Shown here: positions 23,755 through 47,711 of the stretch, piece by piece
Layout: each line of letters opens with the position of its first letter
Numbering within the stretch: the first letter of the stretch is position 1
Source of the DNA: Clostridiales bacterium
GTDB lineage: Bacteria; Bacillota; Clostridia; Lachnospirales; Lachnospiraceae
Assembly (NCBI GenBank): GCA_021203365.1
Contig: JAJQBI010000058.1
Coordinates: forward strand, 1 to 64,000
DNA length: 64,000 nt
Direction of reading: 5' to 3'
Notes under the pieces: model-generated
The model's input: only the letters and a program-made list of their open reading frames with translations
The model's database searches: none
Told to the model about the DNA's origin: nothing
Made by a program: the position numbers and the translations under genes

Positions 23755-23769
23755 ATGGAGGAAAGAATT

Positions 23770-28937: not shown

Positions 28938-29844
28938 GAGCTTTTCTTTTTGCCTCCTGATAGTTTGCTTCCAGTATTTTCCATGCGGGGCTTTTTCCCG
29001 TATGGCGTTCTGTCTCTTCCATGGCATGAAGGTAATAAGCGGAGCTTTCCTCATATTGCGCGTTATGGTAAAACAGTTTTCCCATGGCGGAGAGAGCGGC
29101 GCTGTAGTGGAAATCCTGTCCGCCGTCCTGCTTAAAAATTTCCAGGGCTTTTTCCAGCAGAATGGCAGCTTCTTTGTATTGTTCGGAATCTTCAGAGCGG
29201 ATGCTTTTTTCCTGTTGGGAACTGTCAATTGGCGGTATCTCATTTTTTTGTGGTGAAAAGTCTGCCGGCTGTGTGTCATTTGTCTGCGGAGCATGATCCG
29301 CCTGCTGCATCAGGGAGTTGGCCAGGTTGGTCATGGTGGTGGCCTGTTGTATGGCAGCATCGGGGTAGCAGCTGACAATCTGCAGCGCCTGTCGCAGGAA
29401 ACGGACGGCCTGTCCATAGTCCTGTTGTGCCAGGGAAAGCAGGCTCCAGTTATTGTAAAGGCTGGCGAAGAGAAAATCATTTTTCGGCAGGCTGGCCTGG
29501 TAGATTCGTTCCGCTTCCAGATACAAAGCATGGGATTCATCAAAAAGTTCAAAGGCTCTGTAAGCGTTGGCTATATTTAGGAGAGTCGTTCCGTGAACGG
29601 CCATATCTCCAGGCTGCATCTGTATCAGGAGCTTTTTCATGCGTTCTGCACAGTCCAGGGCCAGGTCGCGCGCTCCGGTATCTCTGCAGAGCCCCATTTG
29701 CTCGTTGAGCAGGCTGAGTAAAGCATTGTTGTCTCCTTCCTTTTCTGCCTGTCTGGTTTTTTCACTGAGAAAATTCTGGATTTCTGTCAGTGTATGATTT
29801 CCAAACAGGCTGTCATATTCTGATAATGTTTTTTGAATATTCAT
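28927..29844 (-). CDS. Tetratricopeptide-repeat protein
   Basis: 305 residues starting MNIQKTLSEYDSLFGNHTLT. At least five TPR-like helical pairs are seen, for example LLNIANAYRAFELFDESHAL, NNWSLLSLAQQDYGQAVRFL and SAMGKLFYHNAQYEESSAYY. They are interrupted by a Gln/Pro/Asp-rich insertion (about 185-215). No signal peptide. It probably scaffolds protein contacts for the DUF4037 and DUF4125 proteins encoded downstream in the same direction. Confidence 0.8.
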   Translation of the reverse strand: MNIQKTLSEYDSLFGNHTLTEIQNFLSEKTRQAEKEGDNNALLSLLNEQMGLCRDTGARDLALDCAERMKKLLIQMQPGDMAVHGTTLLNIANAYRAFELFDESHALYLEAERIYQASLPKNDFLFASLYNNWSLLSLAQQDYGQAVRFLRQALQIVSCYPDAAIQQATTMTNLANSLMQQADHAPQTNDTQPADFSPQKNEIPPIDSSQQEKSIRSEDSEQYKEAAILLEKALEIFKQDGGQDFHYSAALSAMGKLFYHNAQYEESSAYYLHAMEETERHTGKSPAWKILEANYQEAKRKAHET

Positions 29845-31451: not shown

Positions 31452-33053
31452 TCATTTTTTGGAATTATCGGGTTTCTCACGCGTATGTCTGGACTGGGGC
31501 AGGGGATAAAGGGAAACTCCTTCCTTTTGATATTTTTCTCTGTATTGCAGAAGCAGGCAGGAAAAAATCAGGTCGCAGCGCAGATTGGGATCCTCCATAG
31601 ATTCGCCAAGTAACTCCTCAATTTTTTTAAGTTTATAGATGGTAGTGTTCCGATGGAGAAACATTTCTGCGCTGGTTTTGGCTATACTGCAGTTGTTCAT
31701 TAAATAATGGAACATGATCTCCCGCAGGTTCGTTCCATAGGCCCGGTCATACCGGATGATTGAAAGTACGCCTGGGTGGCAGAGAAACATGATATCGTCG
31801 CAGCCGAGCACATTGGATATATTTTTCGCACAGATATCAATAACGTTGTATATGGTATACCGGGAAAAGGTCATGCTGCGCGACTCATTGTTTGTCCGTA
31901 AGGCCAGGACAACGGGAAACATGCGCTGGCACTGTTTGTACATAACCCGTATGGCCCGGATGGAAGTAACCGGGTTTCCGATCATGGCGATGGCCTGATT
32001 TGTTTTCAGAAACACCTCAAATTCAGAATCATTAAAAGTGATCGGGCAGTATATCTTGTCAGAGGAAAGCAGAACGACAATCTCTGTTGATGTTATGGCA
32101 ATATGTTCCCTGGGAAAAAATGATTTTACGGAAGAAAGGAGAACATCCAGTTCCTCGTCCGTCTGCTCCTCCGGGTGCAAATGGGAACGGATTAAAATCA
32201 GCCGCATAAAAGGTTTGGGCGGAGATGGAAGTTCCTTCAGCATGGTCATCAGCAAACCGTCAGAGTCATCTTTTTCCGAGATGATGCGGGAAAAAATGAG
32301 CTGAAAAGACAATCGCCTGGACGGTGCAGAACGGAAACTGTTGTTCAGGAGAGGAAAAGCTTTTTCGGCAATAAGCAGAGAAACAGGCGCGAGCAGATCA
32401 TTGTCAGTTAAACCGGTGGAAAGCAGTCCGGTTTCCTGGGTTATGGGGATAAAAATGGATTGTCGGTTGTTTTCTGTAAAAAGGATTTTCTGTTTCGGCA
32501 AAACAGTCTGGTGGAACAGGCGGTTAAGGACTTCTTTGCTTTTTGGGTGTGACTGGACAAATTCTCCGAAAAGAGAATTATCTTTGTCAGAAATTTTATT
32601 TTCCTTTACAGAAAGATGCCTGTCCAATATTACAAAGGAGCCGCCGGTCAGCTGAAAAGCAGTTGAGAGAAGGCTGCGGATATTGTATGGGGAGGCGGCG
32701 GCCAGCAGGTCAGACAGATGTGCGACCTGGCTTCCATACTGATTTATCAGGTTACTGATGCCGATTAAAGACAAATTGGTAACCAGAAATGTCATGCTTT
32801 GAGGACAGGACAACAGCTCCAGTTCTTCGGAGTTCCCTGCGCTGATCAGGCAGCAGTCATTCTGACAGGAGGCTTGTTGTTCTAATATCTGGGCGCAGAG
32901 TGCAGGCTCCGCAAGGCAGAGATAATCCGGATCAAACATCTGACAGGATTCCAGCATAAGAATACCCTGATAGCGGATAAATGGAGAATTTCCCGATTCC
33001 CGGAGGAGATGCCCCTCAAGTATCTGTTTTAAAGTTTGGGTAAACAGTACCAT
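31452..33053 (-). CDS. PucR-type transcriptional regulator 1
   Basis: 533 residues starting MVLFTQTLKQILEGHLLRES. The C-terminal PucR helix-turn-helix (about 455-510) reads LREIMFHYLMNNCSIAKTSA then EMFLHRNTTIYKLKKIEELL. A GGDEF-related middle domain (about 270-400) precedes it, and an N-terminal sensor region (about 1-200) has no clear class. PucR/CdaR-like proteins usually activate catabolic genes when they sense the substrate. It is transcribed divergently from the first GRE gene across about 530 bp that contains the 40-bp shared motif, making it the best candidate activator of both the GRE and CoA-transferase promoters. Confidence 0.85.
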   Translation of the reverse strand: MVLFTQTLKQILEGHLLRESGNSPFIRYQGILMLESCQMFDPDYLCLAEPALCAQILEQQASCQNDCCLISAGNSEELELLSCPQSMTFLVTNLSLIGISNLINQYGSQVAHLSDLLAAASPYNIRSLLSTAFQLTGGSFVILDRHLSVKENKISDKDNSLFGEFVQSHPKSKEVLNRLFHQTVLPKQKILFTENNRQSIFIPITQETGLLSTGLTDNDLLAPVSLLIAEKAFPLLNNSFRSAPSRRLSFQLIFSRIISEKDDSDGLLMTMLKELPSPPKPFMRLILIRSHLHPEEQTDEELDVLLSSVKSFFPREHIAITSTEIVVLLSSDKIYCPITFNDSEFEVFLKTNQAIAMIGNPVTSIRAIRVMYKQCQRMFPVVLALRTNNESRSMTFSRYTIYNVIDICAKNISNVLGCDDIMFLCHPGVLSIIRYDRAYGTNLREIMFHYLMNNCSIAKTSAEMFLHRNTTIYKLKKIEELLGESMEDPNLRCDLIFSCLLLQYREKYQKEGVSLYPLPQSRHTREKPDNSKK

Positions 33054-33283: not shown

Positions 33284-33351
33284 TTATGTACAAAACGTGC
33301 CGCTATATGTGCAGATTAACCATATCTTTTTTTAAATATTTTTTTTATAAT
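33284..33351 (+). promoter_or_regulatory. Putative shared operator and promoter of the first GRE operon
   Basis: The 40-bp block 33284-33323 matches 19305-19344 at 35 of 40 positions. Repeats ATGTAC, ACGTGC and ATGTGC end in GATTAACCAT, with an additional AATGTGC just upstream at 33276-33282. TATAAT (33346-33351) follows after exactly 22 nt, as in the other copy. The -35 region is TATCTT, far from consensus. The block lies in the divergent region between PucR1 and the GRE gene. Confidence 0.7.
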
Positions 33352-33580
33352 TTCTAAGTATAACACGACTGATTGTTTTCATTATTTTGTAAATTTTCAG
33401 TCGAAAAAGATGTGTTATAACAGCACATTTTTAAACATTAAATTTATATTTTGCGAACATGTTATAGCATGTATTTCCTAAAAACAAAAGTATACCTTCC
33501 AGGCATCCCTGAGCGCTCGAGTGGGCTGCGTTTTGTGCAACAGAGTATGAAATATTGAACAGAAAGAAGTGGTGTTAGAA

Positions 33581-35980
33581 ATGTATGAGCGTGTAGAACG
33601 CATAAAAAAAAGAGTGGTAGTGGATACATATCCTATTTGTATTGAAAAGTATCGGGTTACTCTGGATGTATTGGAGCAGACCAAGAATGATCCGGTAATC
33701 ATCCAGCGCGCGAAAATCCTGAACGCTACAGTAGAACGCATGCCGATCGCAATAGCAGATGATGAATTGCTGGTAGGCATAGGTGCGTCAAAGCCTATGG
33801 GTCTGGAAATTGACCCTCACTATGGCATATGGACCCAGGATGAAATTGATTCGCTTATAGAAGATGGCTATCAGATGGATCCCCAGGATGTGAAAGATCT
33901 GCAGGAATTAAACAAAAAACATGATCCGGCTACTATGATTGGCTTAATGGGAGACATTTTTTATGAGCCGGAAAATCAGCGTATTCTTTCTCTGCTGAAA
34001 GCCGGACTTATCCTGCCTCCCTGGAAAGAACAGGCACAGGGAAAGGGCGTGGGTGGCGGTTATTGTCAGTCCGGTCTTGGGTTAGGCCCGTCTTTGGTTT
34101 TGCTGGCAGTGAATTATGATAAGATTTTAAATCTCGGTACGAATGAGCTGATCCGCCAGTGCCAGGAAGAGATGAAAAAACTTCGTTTCTATATTAAGGG
34201 TGATATTGAGAAATATCGTTACTATAAGGCGGTAATCCTTTCGCTGGAAGCAATGAACAAGCTGGCGGCAAGGTATTCGGCTCTGGCAGCTCAGATGGCG
34301 GAGAAGGAGACAGACCTCAACCGGAAAAAAGAGCTGGAGACGATTGCTTCCAATTGTGCCAGAGTGCCGGCTGAGAAACCCAGGACCTTCTGGGAAGCGA
34401 TGCAGTGTTTCTGGTTCCAGTTCCTGATGTTAAGTCCGTCTACGACCCTGCCCGGTTGTCGGTTCGATCAGTACATGTATCCGTTCTATCAGGATGATGT
34501 GGAAAACGGCCGGATCACCCCTGAATTTGCTACAGAGTTATTGTGCTGCTTAAGGCTCAAGGATATGGAGCTGAACCGAACCTCCGGGAAAAACAACCGG
34601 AAGAAAAATGCGGGTATGGCGAAATGGCATAATTTCACGATCGGAGGTCAGAAAGCGGACGGAACTGATGCTACGAATGATTTGACTTACCTGATGCTGG
34701 ATGCTGCGCTGATCACAAAAACTCCGCACCATACCCTGACTGTGAGAGTCCATGAAGGAACACCGAAGAAACTGATGCTCAAGGCGTTGGAGGTCGTTCG
34801 CTCCGGCTTGGGAATGCCGGCTTTTGTTTCAGATGAAAGTTATATTAAATGCTTCACAAGCCGGGGCGTTCCCCTTGAGGATGCGAGAGAGTATGTAATG
34901 ACTGGATGTCTGGATGCCAATATTCCCGGAAAGTCCAGAACAGGCCCGGTTCCTATGGTGACCATTCCATTGATTTTTGATATTTTCCGTCATAATGGTG
35001 TAAACCAGGCAAATGGAGAATTGTGCGGTCTGCAGACTGGCGATTTTACCAGGTATGAAACCTTTGAGGAGCTATATTCCGCTTTTGAGGATGAGCTTCG
35101 CTATTGCATGAACATAGTGGGTGAAAAGAATAACGTAGAGCTGAAGATTACTCAGGAATTGCTTGTAGATCCGCTTCGGAGTGCATTGATGTATGAAGGA
35201 ATTGAATCCGGGGAGGATACGTTCCGGAGAACGATGCCCTTTGAAAACGGGGCGGTAATCAATCCCATCGGTATGGTAAATGTAGGAGATTCTCTGGCTG
35301 CAGTGAAAAAGTTATGCTTTGACGACAGGAAATACTCTCTTGCGCAGCTGCAGGAAGCGCTGGACGCGGACTGGAAAGGCTATGAGTCGATGCGTGAAGA
35401 TTTCCTGAAAGCTCCGAAATATGGCAATGACGATGATTATGTAGACGAAATTGTGGCTCGCTGCTATAAGTCATTCTGTGATATTTGCGGAGAAATTCCT
35501 ACAATTTTAGGGGGTGTACATATTCCGACTGGTATTTCCATCACCTCTCACCAGCCTGGAGGTCAGCTGACCGGTGCGACTCCGGATGGCCGGAAGGCGG
35601 GAGAAATTCTGGCTGATGGCACTATGTCTCCCATGCATGGTATGGATAAGGAAGGTCCTACAGCAGTGCTAAAGAGCGCTATGAAAATCGATCAGGATCC
35701 CTTCCAGGCTACTTTGCTGAACATGCGGTTTGCTCCGTCTTCTTTAAAGACAGAGTCGGATCTGGAAAAACTGGCCGATATGATAACTACATATCTGACA
35801 AACGGCGGTAAACACATCCAGTTTAATGTGGTGGACAACAGTACGCTGCTTGCGGCTCAGGAGGAGCCTCAGAAATACCGCGATCTGGTCGTGCGGGTAG
35901 CCGGATACAGCTGTTATTTTGTACAGCTGACACGGGCGATGCAAAACGAGGTGATTGAGCGTACCCAACAGTCATTGTGA
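33581..35980 (+). CDS. Glycyl radical enzyme, paralogue A
   Basis: The protein has 799 residues. ATG 33581 is chosen by alignment with the two paralogues (MYERVERIKKRVVVDTYPIC); the ribosome binding site is weak, and an in-frame GTG lies four codons upstream. The PFL-like barrel contains the thiyl-radical loop VMTGCLDANIPGKSR with Cys443 and Asp445. The C-terminal glycyl radical domain has LVVRVAGYSCYF with Gly775. The catalytic-loop signature is Cys-x-Asp, not Cys-x-Glu as in glycerol, choline, isethionate and hydroxyproline GREs, and not Cys-Cys as in pyruvate formate-lyase. Length and glycine-rich N-terminal segment (GKGVGGGYCQSGLGLGPSL) fit the dehydratase/lyase/decarboxylase branch. It must be activated by the radical SAM enzyme at 41112. 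Substrate unknown. Confidence 0.92.
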   Translation: MYERVERIKKRVVVDTYPICIEKYRVTLDVLEQTKNDPVIIQRAKILNATVERMPIAIADDELLVGIGASKPMGLEIDPHYGIWTQDEIDSLIEDGYQMDPQDVKDLQELNKKHDPATMIGLMGDIFYEPENQRILSLLKAGLILPPWKEQAQGKGVGGGYCQSGLGLGPSLVLLAVNYDKILNLGTNELIRQCQEEMKKLRFYIKGDIEKYRYYKAVILSLEAMNKLAARYSALAAQMAEKETDLNRKKELETIASNCARVPAEKPRTFWEAMQCFWFQFLMLSPSTTLPGCRFDQYMYPFYQDDVENGRITPEFATELLCCLRLKDMELNRTSGKNNRKKNAGMAKWHNFTIGGQKADGTDATNDLTYLMLDAALITKTPHHTLTVRVHEGTPKKLMLKALEVVRSGLGMPAFVSDESYIKCFTSRGVPLEDAREYVMTGCLDANIPGKSRTGPVPMVTIPLIFDIFRHNGVNQANGELCGLQTGDFTRYETFEELYSAFEDELRYCMNIVGEKNNVELKITQELLVDPLRSALMYEGIESGEDTFRRTMPFENGAVINPIGMVNVGDSLAAVKKLCFDDRKYSLAQLQEALDADWKGYESMREDFLKAPKYGNDDDYVDEIVARCYKSFCDICGEIPTILGGVHIPTGISITSHQPGGQLTGATPDGRKAGEILADGTMSPMHGMDKEGPTAVLKSAMKIDQDPFQATLLNMRFAPSSLKTESDLEKLADMITTYLTNGGKHIQFNVVDNSTLLAAQEEPQKYRDLVVRVAGYSCYFVQLTRAMQNEVIERTQQSL

Positions 35981-36026
35981 TTTTTAAACGGATGATGAAA
36001 TGGAAAGGTAAAGGAGGAGATTAAAC

Positions 36027-38420
36027 ATGCCTACAGAACGGATCAAAAGAATGCAGGCTGCGCTGAAAGTGGATAAATTCCCTTTTTGTGCGGAAAAAGC
36101 GAAATATGTGATTGAATCCTGGAAACAGAATGAAGGATTGCCTTCCATTCTGCGCAGGGCAAAAGCAACCGCGAATTATTTAGACAAAAGAACCATTTAT
36201 GTGGATGATGATGAACTGATCGTAGGAAACTGCGCTTCACGTCCCATGGGTCTGGAAGCGTCCTGCTGGGGACCATTTTGGGATGATGAGGACCTGGATA
36301 CGATCCTGGAAGGAAATTATACTATTTCTGATGAGGACAGGAAGACACTCCGTGACCTGGATTCCTTCTGGGATGGGCAAAGCCGTCAGATGTATGAGTG
36401 GCAGGGAAGGTTTTATGATGACGAGCGTTTGTGGCCGTTCATCCGTTCCGGAATCCTTTGCCCGCCCTGGACAAGTAAAGTTAAGGGAAGAGGTTCAGGC
36501 GGCGCCGGCTTTGGATGGGGCCTTGGCATTGGTTTAAGTTTCTTTGTACCAGATTATGGAAAAGTAATTACAGAAGGGGTAGCGGCCCGTGTGGAGGAAG
36601 CGGAAGAGGAACTTCGCAACCTGCGGTATGTGGACAGCGACTCCTTTGATAAGGCGGATTATCTTCGGGCCTGTATTATCGCTCTGACCGCCATGCAGCG
36701 TATGTATCACCGCTACGGAGATGTGTGTACCGCGAAAGCAGAAGAAACTGCCGATCCGGTGCGCAAAGCGGAACTGGAACGGATGGCGGATACCTGCCAT
36801 AACCTGGCCGAGCACGGGGCGAGAGACTTTCGGGATGCGATTCAGGCGTTCTGGTTCTACTGGATGATGATTACCCATGGTACAGTGCCGGGAGGACGTT
36901 TTGACCAGTATATGTATCCATTCTATAAACAGGATATTGAAAACGGCACACTGACGGAGGATGAGGCTCTGGAGCTGATCGAATGCCTGCGTATCAAGAT
37001 CATGCAATTCAATTTCGTGTCTGGAAATGCAAAACAGAGAGACAAATGGGCTGGTATGGCAAGGTGGCATAACTTTGTTATAGGCGGCGTGGACAAGGAT
37101 GGAAACGATGCAACCAATGAATTAAGTTATCTGGTGTTGAAAGCAGCTTATGAAGTTCGCACTCCTCAGTTTACCATTACGATCCGTGTGAATGAAAACA
37201 CGCCTGCCAGGCTGATGCTGGAAGGAATGAAACTGGTGCAGACTGGTCTGGGTATGCCCGCTTTTGTATCTGATAAAAGTTATATCAATGGGCTGGTTGA
37301 CCAGGGAGTTCCTCTGGAGGAAGCCAGAGATTATGCGTTAGCCGGCTGCCTTGATCTGAATCTCCCCGGAAAATCCAGGATCAACGCTCTGGGTATGTTT
37401 ATTGTACCGAAGGTGCTGGATATTATGATGCATAACGGTGTGATGAGAGAAACAGGGGAGCAGCTGGGGCCGAAAACCGGAGAGATGGAAGATTTCACTT
37501 CTTATGAAGATTTTGTGAAAGCCTTTAAGGAACAGTTGTACTACTTTATGGGAATGTACAACGAAGAGCACAACATTCTGTGCCGCGTTACCAGGGAAAT
37601 TAACTGTGATGTGGTTCATTCGGCCTTTGCCTATGATGGAATTAAATGTGGAAAAGATATTTCCAACCGGAAAATGCCCTACGAGAACGCATCCCTGTTA
37701 AATCCGGTAGGCATGATCAGCGTAGTGAATTCGCTGGCGGCAGTAAAGGACCTTGTGTTTGATAAAAAGCTCTGTACCATGAAAGAATTATCTGCCGCGA
37801 TGGAAGCGAACTGGGAAGGATATGAGGAAATCCATAAGCTTTGTCAGGATGCTCCCAAGTTTGGAAATGGTGTGGATATGGTAGATGAGATTGCAGCGGA
37901 TTTGTTTAAATTCTGGTCAGACAGCTGCAAAACCTTTACTACGATCTATGGTGAACCGCCCCGTCCTACCGGAATTTCCATTACGGCTCATGCTCCCGGA
38001 GGTGCTTATACCTGTGCGACTCCCGATGGAAGATGCTTTGGTGATACCCTGCCTGACGGTGTGGTTTCCCCGGCACAGGGAACAGATACGAATGGCCCGA
38101 CGGCATCCCTTTCCAGCGCTATGAAGATCAACCAGGATCCGTTCAACGCGATGCTGTTGAATATGAAGATACATCCTTCATCACTGAAAAGTGACGAAGA
38201 TCTGATGAAGCTGGGCGATCTGGTAAGAACCTATCTGTTAAATGGAGGAAAGCATATCCAGTTTAATGTGGTAGACAACGATACTCTGCGCAAGGCTCAG
38301 AAAGAGCCTGAAAACTACAGCGATCTGGTGGTTCGTGTGGCAGGCTACAGTACTTATTTCACTCTGCTTACAACTGCGGTTCAGAACGAGCTGATCGCCA
38401 GAACCGAGAACAGATTGTAG
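36027..38420 (+). CDS. Glycyl radical enzyme, paralogue B
   Basis: 797 residues from ATG 36027, which follows AAAGGAGGAG and lies 46 nt after paralogue A; the two are certainly co-transcribed. The active-site loop is ALAGCLDLNLPGKSR (Cys441, Asp443) and the glycyl loop is LVVRVAGYSTYF (Gly773). It is homologous along the full length to paralogues A and C. In all three the surrounding GLGMPAF[VL]SD.SYI segment is conserved, so they form one subfamily. Two adjacent GREs may act on two successive intermediates, on two related substrates, or as a heteromer; the sequence does not decide. Confidence 0.92.
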   Translation: MPTERIKRMQAALKVDKFPFCAEKAKYVIESWKQNEGLPSILRRAKATANYLDKRTIYVDDDELIVGNCASRPMGLEASCWGPFWDDEDLDTILEGNYTISDEDRKTLRDLDSFWDGQSRQMYEWQGRFYDDERLWPFIRSGILCPPWTSKVKGRGSGGAGFGWGLGIGLSFFVPDYGKVITEGVAARVEEAEEELRNLRYVDSDSFDKADYLRACIIALTAMQRMYHRYGDVCTAKAEETADPVRKAELERMADTCHNLAEHGARDFRDAIQAFWFYWMMITHGTVPGGRFDQYMYPFYKQDIENGTLTEDEALELIECLRIKIMQFNFVSGNAKQRDKWAGMARWHNFVIGGVDKDGNDATNELSYLVLKAAYEVRTPQFTITIRVNENTPARLMLEGMKLVQTGLGMPAFVSDKSYINGLVDQGVPLEEARDYALAGCLDLNLPGKSRINALGMFIVPKVLDIMMHNGVMRETGEQLGPKTGEMEDFTSYEDFVKAFKEQLYYFMGMYNEEHNILCRVTREINCDVVHSAFAYDGIKCGKDISNRKMPYENASLLNPVGMISVVNSLAAVKDLVFDKKLCTMKELSAAMEANWEGYEEIHKLCQDAPKFGNGVDMVDEIAADLFKFWSDSCKTFTTIYGEPPRPTGISITAHAPGGAYTCATPDGRCFGDTLPDGVVSPAQGTDTNGPTASLSSAMKINQDPFNAMLLNMKIHPSSLKSDEDLMKLGDLVRTYLLNGGKHIQFNVVDNDTLRKAQKEPENYSDLVVRVAGYSTYFTLLTTAVQNELIARTENRL

Positions 38421-38500
38421 AAAATCTGTACTTGAAAGGGAACGGCTCATCTGGGCGAATCGTTATAAAATCATATCTATCAGGAAAAAGGAGTAAAGAA

Positions 38501-39805
38501 ATGACAATTGTAGTATTATTTTTTGCTGGTTTTATTCTCGCTGTTGTGTTGGGGCAGCGTCTGAAAATCAATGCGGGTATTGTGGCTGTTGCGATCGGTT
38601 TTGTTCTGACCTGGATTTTTGGAGGGGAAGACGCTGCTACATCGACGACATTTATCAAATCGTTTCCTGTAACACTGTTCTGGAATTATTCTATGCCGGT
38701 TATCTTTTATGCTTTTGCAAATGCGAACGGCACGTTAAATACGATGGGTAAGAAGATTTCCTATCAATTCAGGAATGCCCGCTGGGCTCTGCCGATTGCC
38801 ATGACTGTTGTTGCAGCCGTTGTGGCGGCTGCAGGTGCCGGTACGATGAATACCTTTATCGTAGCTCCTCTGGCATGGGGATTATGTCTGGCAGCAGGCG
38901 TAACGCCTCTGATCATTCCCGTTGCTTTGTGGTGCGGTTCCTTTATCGGTGCATTCCTTCCCTGGACTTCAAATGGCGCTCTGCTGTCAGGTATGTATTC
39001 AGAGTATCTGACCGGTGTAGACCCCATGGCAATGTCCGTCAGAGTTTGTGTTTACTATGCACTGTTTGCAATTATTTTCCTGGCAATCATGTATTTTGTA
39101 ACGAAAGCCTGGAAACTGGATGATTCCGGACAGGAAGACTTTATGAGCAAGCCGGAGCCTTTTACCAGGGAGCAGACAGCTACGCTTATCACCATCGTAG
39201 TTTGCATCGGTGTTCTGTTGCTCCCAAGTATTATCAATCAGTTTGCTCCGAACGCAGTTTGTAAATGGATGAGCAGTAACCTGACTCTTCCTGTTACATC
39301 GGTTGCAGGTATCAGCGTTGTGGCAGTAATAGGAGGCGTCAAACTGAAAGATGTCTTTGAAAAATATGTAAACTGGAATATGATCCTGATGATCACTGGC
39401 ATGGGTATGTACTGTACGCTTGCAAGTTCTCTGGGTGTGGTAGCTACTCTGGGTGATGTTTTGCAGACGCTTCCGTCCTTCTTATTTGCGCCCTGTATCA
39501 GTTTGATCGGCTCTGCTCTGAGTCTGGTTACATCAGCCAGCACAGTTCAGCCGCTGCTGTTCTCCATGATCCCTTCTCTGGCCAGTGCGGCAGGCTGTTC
39601 AATGGAGGCTTTGGTAGTTCCTATGATGCTTGGTGTAGGTGTTACATCGATCAGCCCTGTATCGACAGGAGGAGCGGCATGTCTGATTGGCGCCCCCGGT
39701 GAAACATCTCAGAAACTGTTCTCCAAGATGCTGATCATCGCAGTTATCCTGATGGGGGTAAGTGCACTGATTTCCGCAACGCCCCTGGTACGCATCGGAC
39801 TCTGA
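38501..39805 (+). CDS. MatC-like carboxylate carrier, copy 2
   Basis: 434 residues; ATG 38501 follows AAAAAGGAG. About 11-12 membrane helices, with the N-terminus VVLFFAGFILAVVLGQRLKI then NAGIVAVAIGFVLTW homologous to the carrier at 29973-31274. Hairpin-loop motifs AAAGAGTMNTFIVAPLAWGL, LVTSASTVQPLLFSMIPSL and TSISPVSTGGAACLIGAPGE are conserved. It is third in the transcript GRE A - GRE B - carrier and a terminator-like hairpin follows. Likely the uptake route for the GRE substrate, or a product exchanger. Confidence 0.82.
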   Translation: MTIVVLFFAGFILAVVLGQRLKINAGIVAVAIGFVLTWIFGGEDAATSTTFIKSFPVTLFWNYSMPVIFYAFANANGTLNTMGKKISYQFRNARWALPIAMTVVAAVVAAAGAGTMNTFIVAPLAWGLCLAAGVTPLIIPVALWCGSFIGAFLPWTSNGALLSGMYSEYLTGVDPMAMSVRVCVYYALFAIIFLAIMYFVTKAWKLDDSGQEDFMSKPEPFTREQTATLITIVVCIGVLLLPSIINQFAPNAVCKWMSSNLTLPVTSVAGISVVAVIGGVKLKDVFEKYVNWNMILMITGMGMYCTLASSLGVVATLGDVLQTLPSFLFAPCISLIGSALSLVTSASTVQPLLFSMIPSLASAAGCSMEALVVPMMLGVGVTSISPVSTGGAACLIGAPGETSQKLFSKMLIIAVILMGVSALISATPLVRIGL

Positions 39806-39820
39806 AGTTTTGGAAAAACT

Positions 39821-39853
39821 GCATGGACATGAAAAGAGTCCATGCGGTTTTTT
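39821..39853 (+). terminator. Terminator-like hairpin between the carrier and URO-D genes
   Basis: GCATGGAC (39821-39828) pairs with GTCCATGC (39838-39845) and is followed by GGTTTTTTGATT. It would end the GRE A - GRE B - carrier transcript and allow different expression of the following URO-D/activase genes. Confidence 0.75.
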
Positions 39854-39921
39854 GATTAGGTGAACCGTTTGATAGTGTAAAGTAAAATACGAAAAATCAG
39901 ACAAAAAATAGGAGAAAAAAG

Positions 39922-41028
39922 ATGAATCGTATTCCGTTTAATGAAAATGAAATGACCGTAATAGGAAAATATCCGGCAAGAGGGGAGAACCCCAGTATGT
40001 TGAAGCTGGACACACCGGTAACTCCCAGGGAAAATATGCTGGCGTTGTATCGGAGAGAAAAACCGCTTTGGATTCCAGAGTTCTTTGAGATGAAAGCGTT
40101 TGCCCCTAATGTGCTGCCGGAGAACAAAGTCCGGGGTATGGTGATGGAAACGTTAAAAATGCCGAAGGAGGAATTTGGCGGTCCGGATATGTTTGGTGTA
40201 GACTGGATCTTTATGCCGGAAGCAGGCGGTTCTATGGTGCGTCCCGGTACACCGAAGGTGCCGGACCTGTCCCGCTGGGAGGAATATGTTACATTACCGG
40301 ATCCTGACAGCTGGGATTGGGTGGGAAGCCGGGAGTCCAACCAGGAACTGATTGAAAAAAATTATGGGCGTGAAGCTATGAGGCTCACGATCTATACCGG
40401 TTTTTTTGAACGCCTGATTTCCTGGATGGATTTTGAGGATGCGGCAGTTGCGATGATTGATGAGGATCAGAAGGAAGACGTACACAGAGTCTTTTCTTAT
40501 CTGGCGGATCTGTATATCAGAATAATCGGTCATGTGAAGGAGAATTTTCCCGTGGATATCCTGCAGCTTCACGATGACTGGGGTTCTCAGATGGCTCCGT
40601 TTTTCTCCCTGGATGTGGTGCGGGAGATGATCGTACCTCATTTGAAGAAGGTAGTGGATTTCTGCCATGAAAAAGGGATGTTTTTTGATCTTCATTCCTG
40701 TGGTATGAATAAGAAACTGGTTCCTGCCATGATTGAAGCGGGAGTAGACAGCTGGCAGCCCCAGATCATTAACGATACCTGGGATATCTGCCGTACATAC
40801 GGAGATCAGATCATTATCAACGTAATTCCGAAAAATACGCCAAAAGGCCTGGTTTCAGAAGAATATGACCGGATGGCGAAAGAATGGGTAGACGATAACT
40901 TTGAGCTTTTCTGCAATCATCCGTTTATCCTGCTGCCTACGCCCATGGATCCTTTTGGAAAAACTTATGTAGATCCTCAGTTTATTGCAGGCGCGTATCG
41001 TTACAGCCGGGAAAAACTGGATCATTAA
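39922..41028 (+). CDS. URO-D/MtaA-superfamily protein 1
   Basis: 368 residues; ATG 39922 after TAGGAG. The TIM-barrel URO-D fold is marked by VDILQLHDDWGSQMAPFFSL, then VREMIVPHLKKVVDFCHEKG and FDLHSCGMNKKLVPAMIEAG. The HxCG motif (H-S-C-G) matches the His and first Cys of the zinc site of methylcobamide:CoM methyltransferases such as MtaA. True HemE arginines at the N-terminus are absent, so porphyrin decarboxylation is unlikely. No corrinoid protein is encoded nearby. Proximity to GREs and homology to the second copy at 46417 suggest a role in handling the GRE substrate or product, for example group transfer at zinc; unproven. Confidence 0.82.
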   Translation: MNRIPFNENEMTVIGKYPARGENPSMLKLDTPVTPRENMLALYRREKPLWIPEFFEMKAFAPNVLPENKVRGMVMETLKMPKEEFGGPDMFGVDWIFMPEAGGSMVRPGTPKVPDLSRWEEYVTLPDPDSWDWVGSRESNQELIEKNYGREAMRLTIYTGFFERLISWMDFEDAAVAMIDEDQKEDVHRVFSYLADLYIRIIGHVKENFPVDILQLHDDWGSQMAPFFSLDVVREMIVPHLKKVVDFCHEKGMFFDLHSCGMNKKLVPAMIEAGVDSWQPQIINDTWDICRTYGDQIIINVIPKNTPKGLVSEEYDRMAKEWVDDNFELFCNHPFILLPTPMDPFGKTYVDPQFIAGAYRYSREKLDH

Positions 41029-41111
41029 AAGCTGCCGATGGAAGATGATAAATTGTTATGACAGACAATGCATTGTCAGAGAAAACTTAACCATTGTAGG
41101 AGCGGAAGAAA

Positions 41112-42071
41112 ATGCCTGAGAAAAAAACAATTGGTGAGCCTGCGGATCGCAGTGTCACCACCACTGTATTTAATATTCAGACCTATTGTATTCATGATGG
41201 CCCTGGGATCCGAGTGACGGTTTTTGTAAAAGGGTGTCCCCTGCGCTGCACCTGGTGCGCAAATCCGGAATCGAACCTGCGCCGTCCCCAGCTGATGTTT
41301 TATAAGGACAAATGTACAGCATGCGGGCGCTGTGTGGAGGTCTGTCCGGAAAAAGCCATATCCATCGCAGAAAAAGATGGAACCTATAAATCGTATACAG
41401 ACCGCCAGCGCTGTGTGGATTGCGGAAAATGTGTGCCGGTGTGTTATCAGGAAGCCAGGGAGCTGGCAGGAACCACAACCTCTGTGGATGAGGTGATTAA
41501 GCGGGTGCTGAAGGACCGGCTGTTTTTGGAGACTTCCGGCGGCGGCATGACGATAAGCGGGGGTGAATGCCTGTATTGTCCTGATTTTACAGAAAACCTG
41601 TTAAAAGCAGCTCATGAGGAAGGCCTTCACACTGCAGTGGAAACCTGTAATTTTGCTTCTGTGCAGGTGATAGACCGTATTTATCCTCACGTAGATCTGG
41701 CTCTGTGCGATATCAAGCACATGGATCCCGTAAAGCATAAAGAGTATACCGGGGTTTCAAATGGACAGATTTTAAGCAATATTAAGCATATTTACCATGA
41801 TCTTCATGTACCTGTGTGGATTCGTGTGCCGGTTATCCCTGATCACAACGATGATGAAGAGAATATCTCCGCTACGGCTGCGTTTGTCAGGGATCAGCTG
41901 GGGACGGATGTGCGGGTGTGTCTGTTGCCTTATCATCGGCTGGGAGAGTCAAAAAATGAAAGTCTGGGTAAAGAAATGGACTGGAGTATGGAATTACCCT
42001 CTGATGAGCATATGGAGAATCTGAAAACGCTGGTGGAAGGTTTTGGGCTGACAGTCCAGATCGGAGGGTGA
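41112..42071 (+). CDS. Glycyl radical enzyme activating enzyme (radical SAM)
   Basis: 319 residues; ATG 41112 follows GTAGGAGCGG. Radical SAM cluster site CPLRCTWC (C-x3-C-x2-C, about 42-49) preceded by SIHDGPGIR-type IQTYCIHDGPGIRVTVFVKG. Two ferredoxin-like [4Fe-4S] sites follow: CTACGRCVEVC and CVDCGKCVPVC, the insert typical of activases for the dehydratase/lyase GRE branch and absent from PFL activase. The SAM-binding segment MTISGGECL and later IRVPVIPDHND are present. As the only activase in the window it presumably installs the glycyl radical in all three GREs. Confidence 0.93.
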   Translation: MPEKKTIGEPADRSVTTTVFNIQTYCIHDGPGIRVTVFVKGCPLRCTWCANPESNLRRPQLMFYKDKCTACGRCVEVCPEKAISIAEKDGTYKSYTDRQRCVDCGKCVPVCYQEARELAGTTTSVDEVIKRVLKDRLFLETSGGGMTISGGECLYCPDFTENLLKAAHEEGLHTAVETCNFASVQVIDRIYPHVDLALCDIKHMDPVKHKEYTGVSNGQILSNIKHIYHDLHVPVWIRVPVIPDHNDDEENISATAAFVRDQLGTDVRVCLLPYHRLGESKNESLGKEMDWSMELPSDEHMENLKTLVEGFGLTVQIGG

Positions 42072-42179
42072 CATATTTGCACATTCATTTGGATATCTGG
42101 CAATACGGTTAAAGAAACTTGCTGGTGGGGGCTGCCTTGGAAACAGGTTTTGACAAGGTGAAAGAAGGTATATGGCGTT

Positions 42180-43763
42180 ATGTCTATATTTCAATTGTTG
42201 GAAAGTAAGCTTAACGAGAATGGCAGAGTCTTCTACAAGCGCTGTGCAGAAAGAAAAATCCGGATTAAATCCGTGGAGCTTTTAACGGGATATACAAAGC
42301 CTAAGGAGAATGTTATTTATATTAGCAATGAAAAAACGGCAGCGACGACGATCCAAAGGCAGAGGGGAAATTTTTCAGGGAATTCGGGGATTTTTCTTGT
42401 ATCGGCCAGTCCGTCTGAAAATAAGGTTTTGCAGGATCAGGCAGAAAAAAATGATCTGTCGATGCTTTTGTCGGATAAGTCTGAAATTGAGCTGAGCCTG
42501 TGTGCTGCGCAGGCTTTGAGTTACTACCTGGATGCGGAAGACTTTTTTAATACGCTGCATTCCTCCCGGGATCTGCCGGGGATATTAAAGAAGCTGGCAG
42601 ACTACCTGGGAGAGGAGATTATGCTGACGAACAGCTTTGGGAAATCTGTTTTTCAAACGCCTCATATGAGCGGTACATTAAAAAAAGAAATGTTAGCACA
42701 GTATTATGATATTATTTCCCGCCTGGAGAATCATAATCTGGATCAGCTGCTTCAGGAGCCGCCGGATTTCATCTATGTTAAGCTTCATCAGAAAGAAAAT
42801 ATTTATGGTGTGTTGTTTATTTCTTTAAAAAATGGAGTCCCCCATGATTATGAATGGATTCTGGAAAAACTGGAACCTTATCTGAACCGCATGCTTGCAT
42901 CAAATATCCGGGCATATCCGAATGTGCCCCCTAAATTTTCCCTGCTTTGGAGGGATATTATGGAAGGCAAATACAGCTCCTCAGAGGAAATAAAAAAGAG
43001 GTTTACCCATTCCGGCTATGCAATCAGTACTTTTTTCAGACTTATGCTTATTCAGCTGAACCAGCCGGTGGAGCAGATAGAATATATTTTCCTGCAGATC
43101 TATCCGGTTTTAAAACAGTTATTCCCAAATAGCCAGTTGACGATTTATATGGGTGTTATTGTGGTTTTGAACTGGGAAGAGCACAGGAATTATTCTCCGG
43201 AACTCAGTAAAGAGGATGAATGGAGACTGGAGGAGCTGATGCGGGAATATGACGGATGGATCTGCATCGGCTGGGGATCAAGGAATATGCTTTGGCTGCC
43301 GCCATTATATCGGTATCTCCATAAAATCCTGAACATGCGGAATCAGATTCTTGAAACCAGCGACAAAGTCAGGATTATTCCATATAGTCATTACTGTCCG
43401 TTTCTGCTGGTGGATATGTGTGCCCAGAACCTGCGGAATACAGCGGATATCCGGGATATTATGCTGCTGTGCCATCCGGCAGTCATTAACCTGTTCCGGT
43501 ATGATCAGGCGCATAACACAAATCTGGAGGAGGTTTTGTTTTATTATATTATTAACCATCACAGCCTGGAGCAGACAGCACAAAGTCTGTATATGCACAG
43601 AAATACGGTAGCAAATAAAATCCGGAAAATCCGGGATATGATCCCAACGGACCTGAATGCTCCTGATATTCAGACGCACCTGTTAATCTCCCACTATATT
43701 CTGAAGTACGGCATTAACATTATTGATCCGAATTTTGTGAGTGAGCAGGAGGACAGACAGTAA
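42180..43763 (+). CDS. PucR-type transcriptional regulator 2
   Basis: 527 residues from ATG 42180 (MSIFQLLESKLNENGRVFYK). The C-terminal PucR helix-turn-helix (about 455-500) reads LEEVLFYYIINHHSLEQTAQ then SLYMHRNTVANKIRKIRDM. The rest is only distantly like PucR1; the N-terminal region (about 1-100) resembles a PucR-like or GAF-like sensor. It lies between the activase and the third GRE gene in the same direction, with 108 and 179 bp gaps. A second regulator within one island suggests that GRE C and URO-D 2 form a separately controlled branch. Confidence 0.83.
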   Translation: MSIFQLLESKLNENGRVFYKRCAERKIRIKSVELLTGYTKPKENVIYISNEKTAATTIQRQRGNFSGNSGIFLVSASPSENKVLQDQAEKNDLSMLLSDKSEIELSLCAAQALSYYLDAEDFFNTLHSSRDLPGILKKLADYLGEEIMLTNSFGKSVFQTPHMSGTLKKEMLAQYYDIISRLENHNLDQLLQEPPDFIYVKLHQKENIYGVLFISLKNGVPHDYEWILEKLEPYLNRMLASNIRAYPNVPPKFSLLWRDIMEGKYSSSEEIKKRFTHSGYAISTFFRLMLIQLNQPVEQIEYIFLQIYPVLKQLFPNSQLTIYMGVIVVLNWEEHRNYSPELSKEDEWRLEELMREYDGWICIGWGSRNMLWLPPLYRYLHKILNMRNQILETSDKVRIIPYSHYCPFLLVDMCAQNLRNTADIRDIMLLCHPAVINLFRYDQAHNTNLEEVLFYYIINHHSLEQTAQSLYMHRNTVANKIRKIRDMIPTDLNAPDIQTHLLISHYILKYGINIIDPNFVSEQEDRQ

Positions 43764-43942
43764 CGGAGCATCTGTGCAACAGATATTTTCATGGATACTT
43801 ACCTGTCGGCACATTTTCCCATGTGATTTTTATACTTTTAGTTCAGATATTCCGGTGCAGACTTAATTAATAGCGTTTTATCCTTTTCGAGCTGATAAAA
43901 TAAAAACATGCAGTAGCTTTCGATGAAAGGAGATGTGTTGTT

Positions 43943-46345
43943 ATGAATGAAAGAGTAAAAAAAATGAAAGACAGCCTGCGGGTCAGTAAATACCCGCTGT
44001 GTATTGAGCTGTTCCGACTGGCGAATGAATCTCTGGACATGACCGGAGGTGAGCCTATGGTTACCCGCCGTGCCAAGCTGCACGAGCATATTCTGGACAA
44101 TATTACGATTTTTATTGAGGAAGACGATCTTCTTTGCGGCTCCGGCGCCAGTAAGCCATTTGGTATGGAGATGCAGTATGAGTATGGTGTGTGGACAAAG
44201 GATGAGGTAGAGTCTTTAAAAAGTGAAATTTATACGATTGATCCGAAAGATGAGGAAGAGTTATATCAGCTGAACGACCGGTTTGCGAATAATGCTTTAA
44301 ACAGCAACCTGGTGGACGCTCTGTCCAAATCACTTGGGATGAATGACAGAATGTGGCCTTTTATGAAATCAGGAGTTATTCTTCCGCCCTGGAAAGACAG
44401 AAAAGGTGGCTCCGGCGGTGGTTTTGCTATGTCCGGCTATGGACTGGGACCTGGATTTTTCCTGGTGTGCGTGGATTATGAGCGGATTTTAAAGGAAGGC
44501 GCAAAATCTGTAATCGCAGAGGCAGAAGAATGCCTGAAAAATCTGCGGTACACAGCCAGCGACAGTATTGACAAGCAAAATTACTGGGAGGCCGTCATTC
44601 GTGTATTTAAAGCATGGGTTCGCTTTGCGGGACGGTATGCGGACCTGGCGGAGCAGATGGCTGGTGAGGAGAAGAATGAGAAGAGGAAGAAGGAGCTTCT
44701 GGAAATGGCCAGAATCTGCCGTAAAGTACCCAATGAGCCGGCGGAAACTTTCCCGGAGGCCATGCAGGCCTTCTGGTTTACTTTTCTTCTGGCGTGTCCC
44801 TCCCCGACTACCACAGCAGGAAGATTTGACCAGTATATGTATCCTTATTACCGCCATGACATTGACGCCGGTTTAATGACCGACGAGGATATTCTGGAAT
44901 ATCTGGAAATTATGCGGTGTAAGGTGATGAAAATCAATCGGGTATCCGGCAAGGCCAATCGGGCGAAGAATTCCGGTATGGCAAAATGGTACAACTGGAC
45001 CATAGGCGGCGTGGATGAACAGGGAAATGATGTTACCAATGAGCTGTCCTATCTGCTTCTGGAGTCCGCAAGGGACACCCAGCTGCCTCATTTTACCGTA
45101 ACGGTCCGTGTTCATGAAAAGACGCCGGAAAAACTGATGTTAAAGGCTATTGAGGTCGTAAAAACCGGCCTTGGAATGCCCGCGTTTCTGAGTGATAAGA
45201 GTTACATTAATTTCTTTGTAGACGGCGGCATGGAAGTGGAAGAAGCCAGAGACTATTGTGCCACTGGCTGTGTAGACGGAAATATTCCTGCAAAAACACG
45301 AAGCCAGGTAGTAACGTTCTTTATCATCGCCCAGGCATTTGATGTATTTATGCATAATGGATTCTGCCGTTATACAGGCGAGAATGTGGGCATTAAAACC
45401 GGCGATGTAACGAAAATGAAAACATTTGAGGAGTTTAAGGACGCGTTCTACGTACAGTTTGATTATCTTATGCACATGGCCGCAGAGCGGAACAATGTGG
45501 AGCTGATCGCAGAACGGGATCTGTTTCCCGATCCCTTCCGTTCTGCTTTAATGAAAGGCGGTGTGGCCAGCGGCAAGGATCTGCTGGATCGCCATTTTGA
45601 TTTTGAAAACGGAAGCCTGCTTGGAGCTGTGGGCGGTGTGAACACAGGGGATTCTCTGGCGGCAATTAAGCTTCTGGTATTTGATCAGAAGAAATATACG
45701 ATGGAGGAGCTGCTGACGGCATTGGATGCTGACTGGGAAGGGTATGAGGAAATGCGGGCAGATTTTATCGCTGCACCGAAATATGGAAATAATGATGATC
45801 TTCCGGATCAGCTGGTGGCTGAGGTATATCAGTTCTTTGCAGATACCTGCTATAAGATGGATACCGCTTACGGCGGAAAAGTAACGCCGAATGCCATCTC
45901 TATTTCGGCTCATCAGCCGGGCGGAGCCTGCACCGGCGCGACTCCGGATGGACGAAAAGGCGGAGATATTCTGGCAGACGCCTCCCTGTCTCCGGATCAT
46001 GGCAAAGACGTAAATGGCCCGCTGGCAGTGCTGGAAAGTGCTATGAAAGTAAACCAGGATCCTTATCAGGGAACCCTGTTAAACATGAAATTCCATCCGT
46101 CTGCATTAAAGACAGAGGAAGACTGTAAGAAACTTGGTTCTATGATTAAGACCTATCTGACAAACGGTGGCAAGCACATTCAGTTTAATGTGGTGAACAG
46201 AGAAGAAATGGTAGATGCAAAGGTGAATCCTGAATCTCATCCGGATCTGGTCGTTCGCGTAGCAGGCTACAGTGCGTACTTCACCCGCTTAAGCACAGGA
46301 ATTCAGGATGAAGTAATTAACAGGACGTCATTTGAGCAGGTTTGA
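43943..46345 (+). CDS. Glycyl radical enzyme, paralogue C
   Basis: 800 residues; ATG 43943 after GAAAGGAGATG. Active-site loop CATGCVDGNIPAKTR with Cys443 and Asp445; glycyl loop LVVRVAGYSAYF with Gly775. Same subfamily as A and B with the shared GLGMPAFLSDKSYIN stretch. The residue between Cys and Asp is Val here and Leu in A and B, and the flanking KTR differs from KSR, hinting at altered substrate. It is followed 71 nt later by URO-D 2, giving a second GRE/URO-D pair in the island. No copy of the 40-bp motif is seen upstream, but a TCGGCACATTTTCCCATGTGA symmetry at about 43808-43828 is a possible operator. Confidence 0.92.
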   Translation: MNERVKKMKDSLRVSKYPLCIELFRLANESLDMTGGEPMVTRRAKLHEHILDNITIFIEEDDLLCGSGASKPFGMEMQYEYGVWTKDEVESLKSEIYTIDPKDEEELYQLNDRFANNALNSNLVDALSKSLGMNDRMWPFMKSGVILPPWKDRKGGSGGGFAMSGYGLGPGFFLVCVDYERILKEGAKSVIAEAEECLKNLRYTASDSIDKQNYWEAVIRVFKAWVRFAGRYADLAEQMAGEEKNEKRKKELLEMARICRKVPNEPAETFPEAMQAFWFTFLLACPSPTTTAGRFDQYMYPYYRHDIDAGLMTDEDILEYLEIMRCKVMKINRVSGKANRAKNSGMAKWYNWTIGGVDEQGNDVTNELSYLLLESARDTQLPHFTVTVRVHEKTPEKLMLKAIEVVKTGLGMPAFLSDKSYINFFVDGGMEVEEARDYCATGCVDGNIPAKTRSQVVTFFIIAQAFDVFMHNGFCRYTGENVGIKTGDVTKMKTFEEFKDAFYVQFDYLMHMAAERNNVELIAERDLFPDPFRSALMKGGVASGKDLLDRHFDFENGSLLGAVGGVNTGDSLAAIKLLVFDQKKYTMEELLTALDADWEGYEEMRADFIAAPKYGNNDDLPDQLVAEVYQFFADTCYKMDTAYGGKVTPNAISISAHQPGGACTGATPDGRKGGDILADASLSPDHGKDVNGPLAVLESAMKVNQDPYQGTLLNMKFHPSALKTEEDCKKLGSMIKTYLTNGGKHIQFNVVNREEMVDAKVNPESHPDLVVRVAGYSAYFTRLSTGIQDEVINRTSFEQV

Positions 46346-46416
46346 TCGAACCAGGAGAATCTGGAATGAACTTTTTAAAGAACTGATGATAAATGAAAAG
46401 GAGATGACTGGCAGTT

Positions 46417-47490
46417 ATGAAGTTTCAGGAAGACGAAATGAAAGTAATAGGGGAGTATTCTCCGGAACTGATGGTGGCAAAAACGATACCAAGATACAAT
46501 ACGCCTCTCACTGCAAAAGAGAATTATTACCGCATGTTTGATCCGGAGAAGCCCTGCGAATGGATTCCCGCCCATTGTGACTGTATTAACTTTAATCCCA
46601 TGATCATACCTGACTGCAAGGCCAGAGGAATGGTAAACGAAGTAAATATGCTGGAAAAAGGCCAGGAGGGCGGCAAGGATATGTTTGGCCTGGACTGGGT
46701 GTATGAGGAAAATGTAGGCGGCTCTATGGTAAAAGCGGGCCAGTATCTGTTTGATGATGCAAACGACTGGAAAGAAAAGGTCGTGTTCCCGGATCTGGAA
46801 CAGTGGGATTGGCAGGGATGTGCTGACCGGAACAGAGGCATTTATTTTGATACAGATCGGGTAACGGAATATGTGCAGTTTACCGGAATGTTTGAGCGCC
46901 TGATCTCCTTCATGACCATGGAGAATGCTTTAATTGCTCTGATGGATGAAGATCAGCAGGATGCGGTAAAAGATTTATTCAGCCATCTGTGTGATTTTTA
47001 CGATGACCTGATTGATCATCTCCATCGTTATTTTCATATTGATATGTTCCAGTTCCATGATGACTGGGGTTCCCAGAGAGGGCCACTGATCAATCCGGAT
47101 ACGATCAGAGAAATGATTGCTCCCTACTTAAAAAGAATCGTAGACAGCTGCCATAAGCGGAATATTATTTTTGATTTCCATTGCTGCGGCAAAAATGAAG
47201 CACTGGTACCGATCATGATCGAATGTGGAATGGATCAATGGGGCGGACAGGCGATTAATGATTTTGATTATATCTATAACAATTATGGCGATCAGATCGT
47301 AATTGGCATTACCCCTTATGACTGCCGCACAGAACGGGATCCGGAGAAAGCCTCGCAGCTGGCGCAGAAATTTGTAGATGATTACTGCCCGGGATTCCAG
47401 AAAAAGCCTTTCTTTGCTGTTATGAGAAGAGCTATCCCCGAATACAGGGAAGCTTTGTATAGAGACAGCAGAATTGCATTGGGAAAATAG
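46417..47490 (+). CDS. URO-D/MtaA-superfamily protein 2
   Basis: 357 residues; ATG 46417, with AAAAGGAG 14 nt upstream. Homologous to URO-D 1 over the whole length: IDMFQFHDDWGSQRGPLINP then TIREMIAPYLKRIVDSCHKR and FDFHCCGKNEALVPIMIECG, with the HxCG motif as H-C-C-G. The C-terminus is shorter and differs (FFAVMRRAIPEYREALYRDS). It is last in the PucR2 - GRE C - URO-D 2 run and is followed by a strong terminator. Same functional inference and the same uncertainty as copy 1. Confidence 0.82.
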   Translation: MKFQEDEMKVIGEYSPELMVAKTIPRYNTPLTAKENYYRMFDPEKPCEWIPAHCDCINFNPMIIPDCKARGMVNEVNMLEKGQEGGKDMFGLDWVYEENVGGSMVKAGQYLFDDANDWKEKVVFPDLEQWDWQGCADRNRGIYFDTDRVTEYVQFTGMFERLISFMTMENALIALMDEDQQDAVKDLFSHLCDFYDDLIDHLHRYFHIDMFQFHDDWGSQRGPLINPDTIREMIAPYLKRIVDSCHKRNIIFDFHCCGKNEALVPIMIECGMDQWGGQAINDFDYIYNNYGDQIVIGITPYDCRTERDPEKASQLAQKFVDDYCPGFQKKPFFAVMRRAIPEYREALYRDSRIALGK

Positions 47491-47517
47491 GAAGAAGATA
47501 AAGACTTTTTACACCAA

Positions 47518-47568
47518 AGAAAAAGCTTTTTCACCCCTGTAAATAAATGGGGGTGAAAAAGCTTTTTT
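47518..47568. terminator. Strong terminator at the end of the GRE island
   Basis: AAAAGCTTTTTCACCCC (47521-47537) pairs with GGGGTGAAAAAGCTTTT (about 47549-47566) around an AT-rich loop, with T-runs on both sides. A stem of about 17 bp makes it effective in either direction. Confidence 0.88.
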
Positions 47569-47711
47569 CCTGTGTTACAGTAAAAATATCCCCCTGCTGT
47601 GCAGGGGAGAGAAAATCTTCAGATGCAGGAGAGAAGAAAGTGGTATTTCCGACCTGTGCGATAAGAAAAACAGGCGGAAAGGCCGGGTTGTTTCAATAAT
47701 ATTATACTGCA

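Follow-up and report, generated by a model that had tools for sequence, protein, structure and literature searches.

A glycyl radical enzyme clade with a GCxD cysteine loop: a Lachnospiraceae island of two putative modules and one activase

Glycyl radical enzymes (GREs) perform some of the hardest chemistry in anaerobic guts and sediments, and their products include trimethylamine, p-cresol, skatole and the sulfite released from isethionate. The described enzymes closest to the proteins studied here are the choline trimethylamine (TMA)-lyase CutC, the trans-4-hydroxyproline dehydratase HypD, the B12-independent glycerol/1,2-propanediol dehydratases (1r8w, 5i2a) and the Olsenella arylacetate decarboxylase (7e7l). 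An island with three GRE genes is located in a stretch of 64,000 nucleotides (the window) at positions 1–64,000 of contig JAJQBI010000058.1 of a Clostridiales bacterium (Lachnospiraceae), the assembly of which is 84% complete. The three GREs belong to a clade in which the Cys loop reads GCxD. As judged from the sequences, there is about an even chance that the island is composed of two modules of this clade with a common activase, each containing a PucR regulator, a carboxylate carrier and a URO-D family protein beside one or more GREs, and that the GREs are catabolic lyases acting on carboxylates.

GRE1 (33569–35980), GRE2 (36027–38420) and GRE3 (43943–46345) are encoded on the forward strand. 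GRE2 and GRE3 consist of 797 and 800 aa, and GRE1 consists of 803 aa from a GTG start codon, or 799 aa if the ATG at 33581 is the start. All three have the PFL-like and Gly_radical domains (Pfam), an RVxGY loop (RVAGYS) and the catalytic Cys, which places them in the glycyl radical superfamily. The amino-acid identity to GRE1 is 45% for GRE2 and 50% for GRE3, and the AlphaFold2 (AF2) model of GRE3 has a pLDDT (predicted local distance difference test) of 91.6. A second metagenome-assembled genome (MAG) of the same genus (G002, locus L057; contig JAFTPT010000053.1, labelled Blautia sp. RGIG4038) has GRE orthologues of 85–86% identity on a contig of 152 kb, and its URO-D orthologues are 71% and 84% identical to the window proteins. 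The GRE3 counterpart of Murimonas intestini DSM 26524 shows 90% identity. These orthologues indicate that the island is not an accident of assembly. The sequence composition along the window shows no clear island border.

In order to place the GREs, genome contigs were scanned with a pattern, and the best 80 loci of at least 564 confirmed relatives were kept. In a tree built from 124 GREs with lengths of 700 aa or more (LG+G4, quick search; long branches were flagged by the program), the window GREs fall inside one clade of 71 rows with a Shimodaira–Hasegawa-like approximate likelihood ratio test (SH-aLRT) support of 100. Among the sampled rows, every clade member has 40.9% or more identity to its closest window GRE, and no row outside the clade exceeds 36.6%, which leaves a gap. 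The clade is divided into a deep sub-clade containing GRE2 (16 rows), a sub-clade containing GRE1 and GRE3 (52 rows) and three basal rows. The NCBIfam GRE models tried were those of CutC, HypD, two sulfopropanediol dehydratases, IAD, HPAD, the PFL types and the PFL2-3 subfamily, and the window GREs reached the cut-off of none of them. The best equivalog score is 530.5 bits against a cut-off of 1000; the CutC equivalog gives 458–511 bits against 1050, and the PFL2-3 subfamily model TIGR01774 gives at most 581.6 bits against 678.2. The identities CutC, HypD, sulfopropanediol dehydratase, IAD, HPAD and PFL were thus ruled out by the cut-offs. A true HypD is encoded separately in the window genome (contig C55; 1197 bits against 1100). 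The initial annotation had found no match to any described GRE system, and this holds for the systems with NCBIfam models; isethionate lyase and the X-succinate (benzylsuccinate-type) synthases are outside the model set. It had also proposed a check of whether the GREs form an uncharacterised cluster. They form a clade of their own, and no name or description of this clade appeared in a literature search limited to openly licensed papers. The same search yielded no account of a system that combines a GRE with URO-D or MmgE. Within the literature and models searched, the clade is therefore a GRE group with no described function in a superfamily that is itself known.

The clade is distinguished by its active-site residues. 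The Cys loop is GCxD, not GCxE, in 70 of the 71 clade rows (GCLD in GRE1 and GRE2, GCVD in GRE3), and 50 of the remaining 53 rows have Glu; the GCxE loop of the eliminases is thus absent from the window GREs. At position 449 (GRE1 numbering throughout), Asp is found in 69 of 69 aligned clade rows and Glu in 51 of 51 others, the two groups being defined by this residue. Trp353 and Arg344 are each present in 69/69 clade rows and in 1/51 others, and position 352 is Lys or Arg in all 69. Among the solved GREs with an inspected loop, GCVE is found in CutC, the glycerol and diol dehydratases and 9rco, and GCVL in 7e7l; the HypD of the window genome also has GCVE. We know of no other characterised GRE with GCxD. 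Positions 352 and 353 are aligned with Asp339 and Phe340 of HypD, which acts on a carboxylate, so that Asp339 is replaced by Lys or Arg in the clade. According to PMC7077986, the HypD mutations D339N and F340A each abolish activity. Position 353 corresponds to Phe395 of CutC by count in the alignment.

The clade profile was compared with the solved GREs. CutC is the top match (697 bits), and its loop is GCVE. The third match is 7e7l (665 bits), which has GCVL in place of GCxD and shares with the clade GGKHxQFNV, TPHxT and the Arg at the Arg329 position. As carboxylate/peptide importers are also common in clade loci, the GREs could be decarboxylases of carboxylic acids with a mechanism akin to that of the arylacetate decarboxylases; we regard this alternative as unlikely. 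A role as variant diol dehydratases with polyol substrates is quite unlikely for the GREs. The glycerol/1,2-propanediol dehydratases have GCVE where the clade has GCxD, the clade has other residues at the positions aligned with the Glu, His281, Ser282, Asp447 and Tyr640 of glycerol dehydratase, the invariant Lys/Arg is present, and the clade has an extra Trp/Gly-rich segment near 152–175. By eye, no aldehyde dehydrogenase or microcompartment gene was recognised in the island.

For lyases of the GCxD clade acting on carboxylates, the following mechanism is proposed. The activase would set the radical on the glycine of RVAGYS, and the radical would move from the glycine to Cys447. The invariant Lys/Arg352 would hold an anionic carboxylate substrate, from which the thiyl radical would abstract a hydrogen; Asp449, replacing the usual Glu, would act as the acid/base for the loss of a group (C–O, C–N or carboxylate). 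Then the product would enter CoA-dependent steps with a CoA-transferase or ligase and an acyl-CoA dehydrogenase with Etf, to which a 2-hydroxyacyl-CoA dehydratase-type enzyme may be added in some relatives. Some relatives may in addition interconvert stereoisomers with MmgE/PrpD and CapA-type proteins and release the acid with hydrolases. The three GREs probably help to degrade anionic plant or dietary acids in a gut bacterium. We suggest more tentatively, at somewhat below an even chance, that the clade performs a radical reaction on (di)carboxylates that is new for GREs, and that the deep GRE2 branch works jointly with GRE1/GRE3-type partners through one shared activase. The partners could act one after the other, handle opposite stereoisomers or form a heterodimer.

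The only activase of the island is a radical SAM GRE activase (41112–42071, forward strand; TIGR02494, 359.8 bits against 174.35) with Fer4 in two stretches (Pfam). The window assembly has six Gly_radical matches and four GRE activases over the cut-off, and the one activase for three GREs given in the initial annotation is true of this assembly. Each of the three GREs outside the island lies next to an activase gene of its own. Thus, sharing of one activase by the three island GREs is likely, with the caution that the assembly is incomplete.

The island carries MatC2 (38432–39805; MatC_N 49.9 bits, CitMHS 37.1 bits), URO-D1 (39922–41028; HDDWG and HxCG motifs), PucR2 (42180–43763; HTH_30, 41.1 bits) and URO-D2 (46417–47490) on the forward strand, and PucR1 (31452–33053; HTH_30, 55.8 bits) and the carboxylate carrier MatC1 (29973–31274; MatC_N and CitMHS) on the reverse strand, all according to Pfam. 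The initial inventory of three full-length GREs, one activase, two URO-D proteins, two carriers and two PucR regulators was therefore recovered by open reading frames and Pfam/NCBIfam. In relatives the island is split into a module of GRE1 and GRE2 with MatC2 and URO-D1, and a module of GRE3 with URO-D2 and either MatC1 or Tct genes. In G002, one unit consists of URO-D2, GRE3, MmgE, CapA, TctB and TctC, with TctA inferred from a gap. The second unit, GRE1-GRE2-MatC2-URO-D1-activase-HgdA-HgdB-CaiB, is located about 25 kb away, and CoA-transferase, ligase, acyl-CoA dehydrogenase and Etf genes are found between the two units (MmgE, CapA and Tct were named by eye and similarity, HgdAB and CaiB by Pfam). 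The GRE3 module has a URO-D gene in L071 and L098 and lacks it in L073. MatC1 homologues of 52–77% identity accompany GRE3-type genes in five loci (L069, L070, L075, L078, L101), and one of 55% is beside a GRE2-type gene (L097); MatC2 homologues of 63–68% are beside GRE2-type genes in two loci. Of the 15 non-window loci with a GRE2-clade gene, 9 also hold a GRE of another clade branch, a count that includes L057, whose GRE1 had been merged with L056. The joining of two modules would account for the presence of two carriers, two regulators and two URO-D genes in the window. The multi-step or multi-substrate pathway suggested earlier is refined accordingly to two modules served by one activase.

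Proteins from the window and from clade loci served as tblastn queries against the neighbourhoods of 57 loci of the clade and 26 control GRE loci. At least one carboxylate or peptide importer (MatC, Dpp, Tct or TRAP) was detected in 30/57 clade loci and 0/26 control loci. MatC (14/57), Dpp (11/57), TctA (7/57), PucR (14/57), CapA (12/57), MmgE/PrpD (9/57), HGD-D (6/57) and the CoA module (9/57) were likewise found in no control locus, whereas a ligase was found in 3/57 clade and 1/26 control loci. CapA or MmgE is present in 15/57 clade loci (0/26 control), and both together in six (Fisher p 0.0015). Ester or peptide hydrolases are present in 12/57 (0/26 control); their domains are borne out by Pfam in L058, L060, L079, L085, L092, L102, L105 and L150, and the calls in L066, L081, L082 and L088 are by similarity alone. 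UGSC and YkuD genes were identified by Pfam in L082 and L088.

The URO-D proteins (URO-D2 is 42% identical to URO-D1) score barely above the Pfam cut-off (24.1 and 26 against 23.9), and a sequence search for a solved relative gave chance matches only. The predicted fold of URO-D2 matches solved UroD, which supports the family assignment, and its structural Z to MtaA (21.4) is tied with that to HemE (21.8). The Zn site of MtaA/CmuA consists of His-x-Cys plus a distal Cys. His-x-Cys-Gly is invariant in 26/26 aligned URO-D-like proteins, and no distal Cys is invariant. From the motif and the fold, the URO-D proteins could be corrinoid-dependent methyltransferases, and the island would then demethylate a substrate either ahead of the GRE reaction or after it. 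The NCBIfam cut-offs of the MtaA/CmuA type are far from being reached, however (URO-D2, 29.4 against 235.4 for TIGR01463; URO-D1, 18.8 against 600 for MtbA), and B12-binding_2 matches in the assembly are present only on another contig (C41); we give this alternative a low probability. A recurrent GRE/URO-D association in related genomes, proposed as a test in the initial annotation, was found in part: a URO-D gene is present in 10/57 clade loci and 0/26 control loci, and it is missing from most clade loci. It is located less than 300 bp from the GRE in L071, L094, L103 and the window. URO-D genes are numerous genome-wide (7 places in the window genome, G000, and 16 in G002), so that one within 10 kb is modest evidence. 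The link of URO-D to the clade is real but patchy, and the importer is the more constant partner.

Upstream of the divergent arm, a CoA module is encoded on the forward strand by a CoA-transferase gene (PF01144, 19934–21556; 105.5 bits), an acyl-CoA dehydrogenase gene (21614–22756, Pfam), etfB (22770–23570) and etfA (23755–24879), both assigned by eye, and an AMP-dependent acyl-CoA ligase gene (24889–26505, by eye from the sequence). According to Pfam, an aldehyde oxidoreductase was ruled out for the first gene. CoA-transferase homologues are found in clade loci L074, L078 and L106 and, by eye, in the sister island L138, which also has a 37% homologue of the ligase. The acyl-CoA dehydrogenase is also present in L057, L070, L074 and L078, and EtfA/B in L057, L070 and L074. 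The CoA module likely belongs to the pathway. An IS110-type transposase gene (by eye) is found at 7707–8531, some 11 kb ahead of the CoA-transferase gene.

HGD-D pairs with CaiB are present in L057, L068 and L105, and a pair in L070; the HGD-D proteins of L067 and L072 are nearer HadB and bzdO and below the cut-off. The HgdB subfamily of the G002 type is rare (2/398 sampled phylum genomes at 1e-40, G342 and G139). In G342 its neighbours are CaiB, genes resembling PucR and CitMHS, and two URO-D-like genes (the protein of one of these two has no Pfam match at 1e-5), and a GRE3 homologue (71%) is on another contig. In G139 the neighbours are CaiB, a URO-D protein (39 bits) and TRAP genes, with no GRE match at 1e-200. 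This reverse search is weakly concordant with the GRE link. Rare HGD-D pairs with NQWWA in the second protein, followed by CaiB, were observed at L180 2707–7585 and L177 10109–13871, with URO-D-like genes nearby and no adjacent GRE.

According to PMC12290011, the substrates of the characterised MmgE/PrpD enzymes have a 1,4-dicarboxylate core in common, and two of these enzymes catalyse methylsuccinate isomerisation and iminodisuccinate (IDS) epimerisation. The solved protein nearest to the MmgE/PrpD of L106 is IDS epimerase (9.4e-31). Of the six residues listed for this enzyme, His85, Asp88, His99 and Lys266 are kept, whereas His150 is replaced by Tyr and Lys198 by Arg. The clade-linked CapA-like proteins match PGA_cap, and MslH (lasso-peptide epimerase) is below the cut-off. 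Together with the CaiB-type CoA-transferases and acyl-CoA dehydrogenases of some clade loci, the reactions of the two MmgE/PrpD enzymes would fit fumarate-adding GREs of the X-succinate synthase type, with MmgE, CaiB and acyl-CoA dehydrogenase processing substituted succinates. Geosporobacter ferrireducens has alkylsuccinate synthase genes according to a review (PMC7701123) and carries a clade GRE (L070), which may or may not be one of these genes. BssA/MasD-type X-succinate synthases gave low profile and fold scores against the clade, with no profile search made for accessory subunits. We consider fumarate addition improbable.

Several points weigh against the proposal of two carboxylate-lyase modules with a shared activase. 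An activase is near the GRE in only 27/57 clade loci (25/26 control loci), though several contigs are short. The 0/26 contrasts overstate specificity, because the query proteins were drawn from loci of the clade itself. The clade is rare: in a profile search of the 398 genomes, scores in the clade range were found, besides G000 (1391 and 1297 bits), only in G342 (1362 bits), and the next score (746 bits) is near those of solved non-clade GREs such as CutC. The Asp is not universal, as one protein in the clade has GCLE and a plasmid relative has GCLG. MmgE, CapA and HgdAB were not recognised in the window island, and HGD-D is over the cut-off in the assembly only on another contig. No MmgE_PrpD_N match was found in this incomplete genome, so that MmgE proteins of the methylsuccinate isomerase/IDS epimerase type were found only in relatives and an MmgE completing the window's own pathway has no support in this assembly.

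The GCLE protein (L072 7363–9771, Dehalococcoidales), the lone GCxE protein in the clade, is divergent from a GCxD partner and offers a natural test of the Asp/Glu switch. The plasmid relative (L181 11908–14403; NC_015583.1 44665–47061) is a GRE homologue of Novosphingobium sp. PP1Y, unusual for such a genus, with 38–40% identity to the window GREs, RIGGCS in place of RVAGYS, and transposase-like genes nearby (by eye). A plasmid home for the clade was rejected, as this divergent protein is the only notable one among the matches listed (10 of 38 plasmid records). The divergent arm of the window also encodes, on the reverse strand, a DUF4125 protein (27212–27862) and a DUF4037 protein (27933–28967), both by Pfam, and a protein called TPR in the initial annotation only (28927–29844). 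DUF4125 is present in 6/57 clade loci and 0/26 control loci, and DUF4037/DUF4125 recur in clade loci, including a Deltaproteobacteria MAG (L107). A tyrosine phenol-lyase-like gene (by eye; L067 930–2342) is near the clade GRE of a Sedimentisphaerales MAG.

Clade records are named Bacillota, Actinomycetota or Coriobacteriaceae, Sedimentisphaerales, Dehalococcoidales, Acidobacteria and Deltaproteobacteria. The changed acid/base and the added cationic residue in a clade of several phyla predict an unassigned chemistry of carboxylic acids. As the clade is present in the named strains Murimonas intestini DSM 26524 and Geosporobacter ferrireducens IRF9, this prediction would be directly testable.

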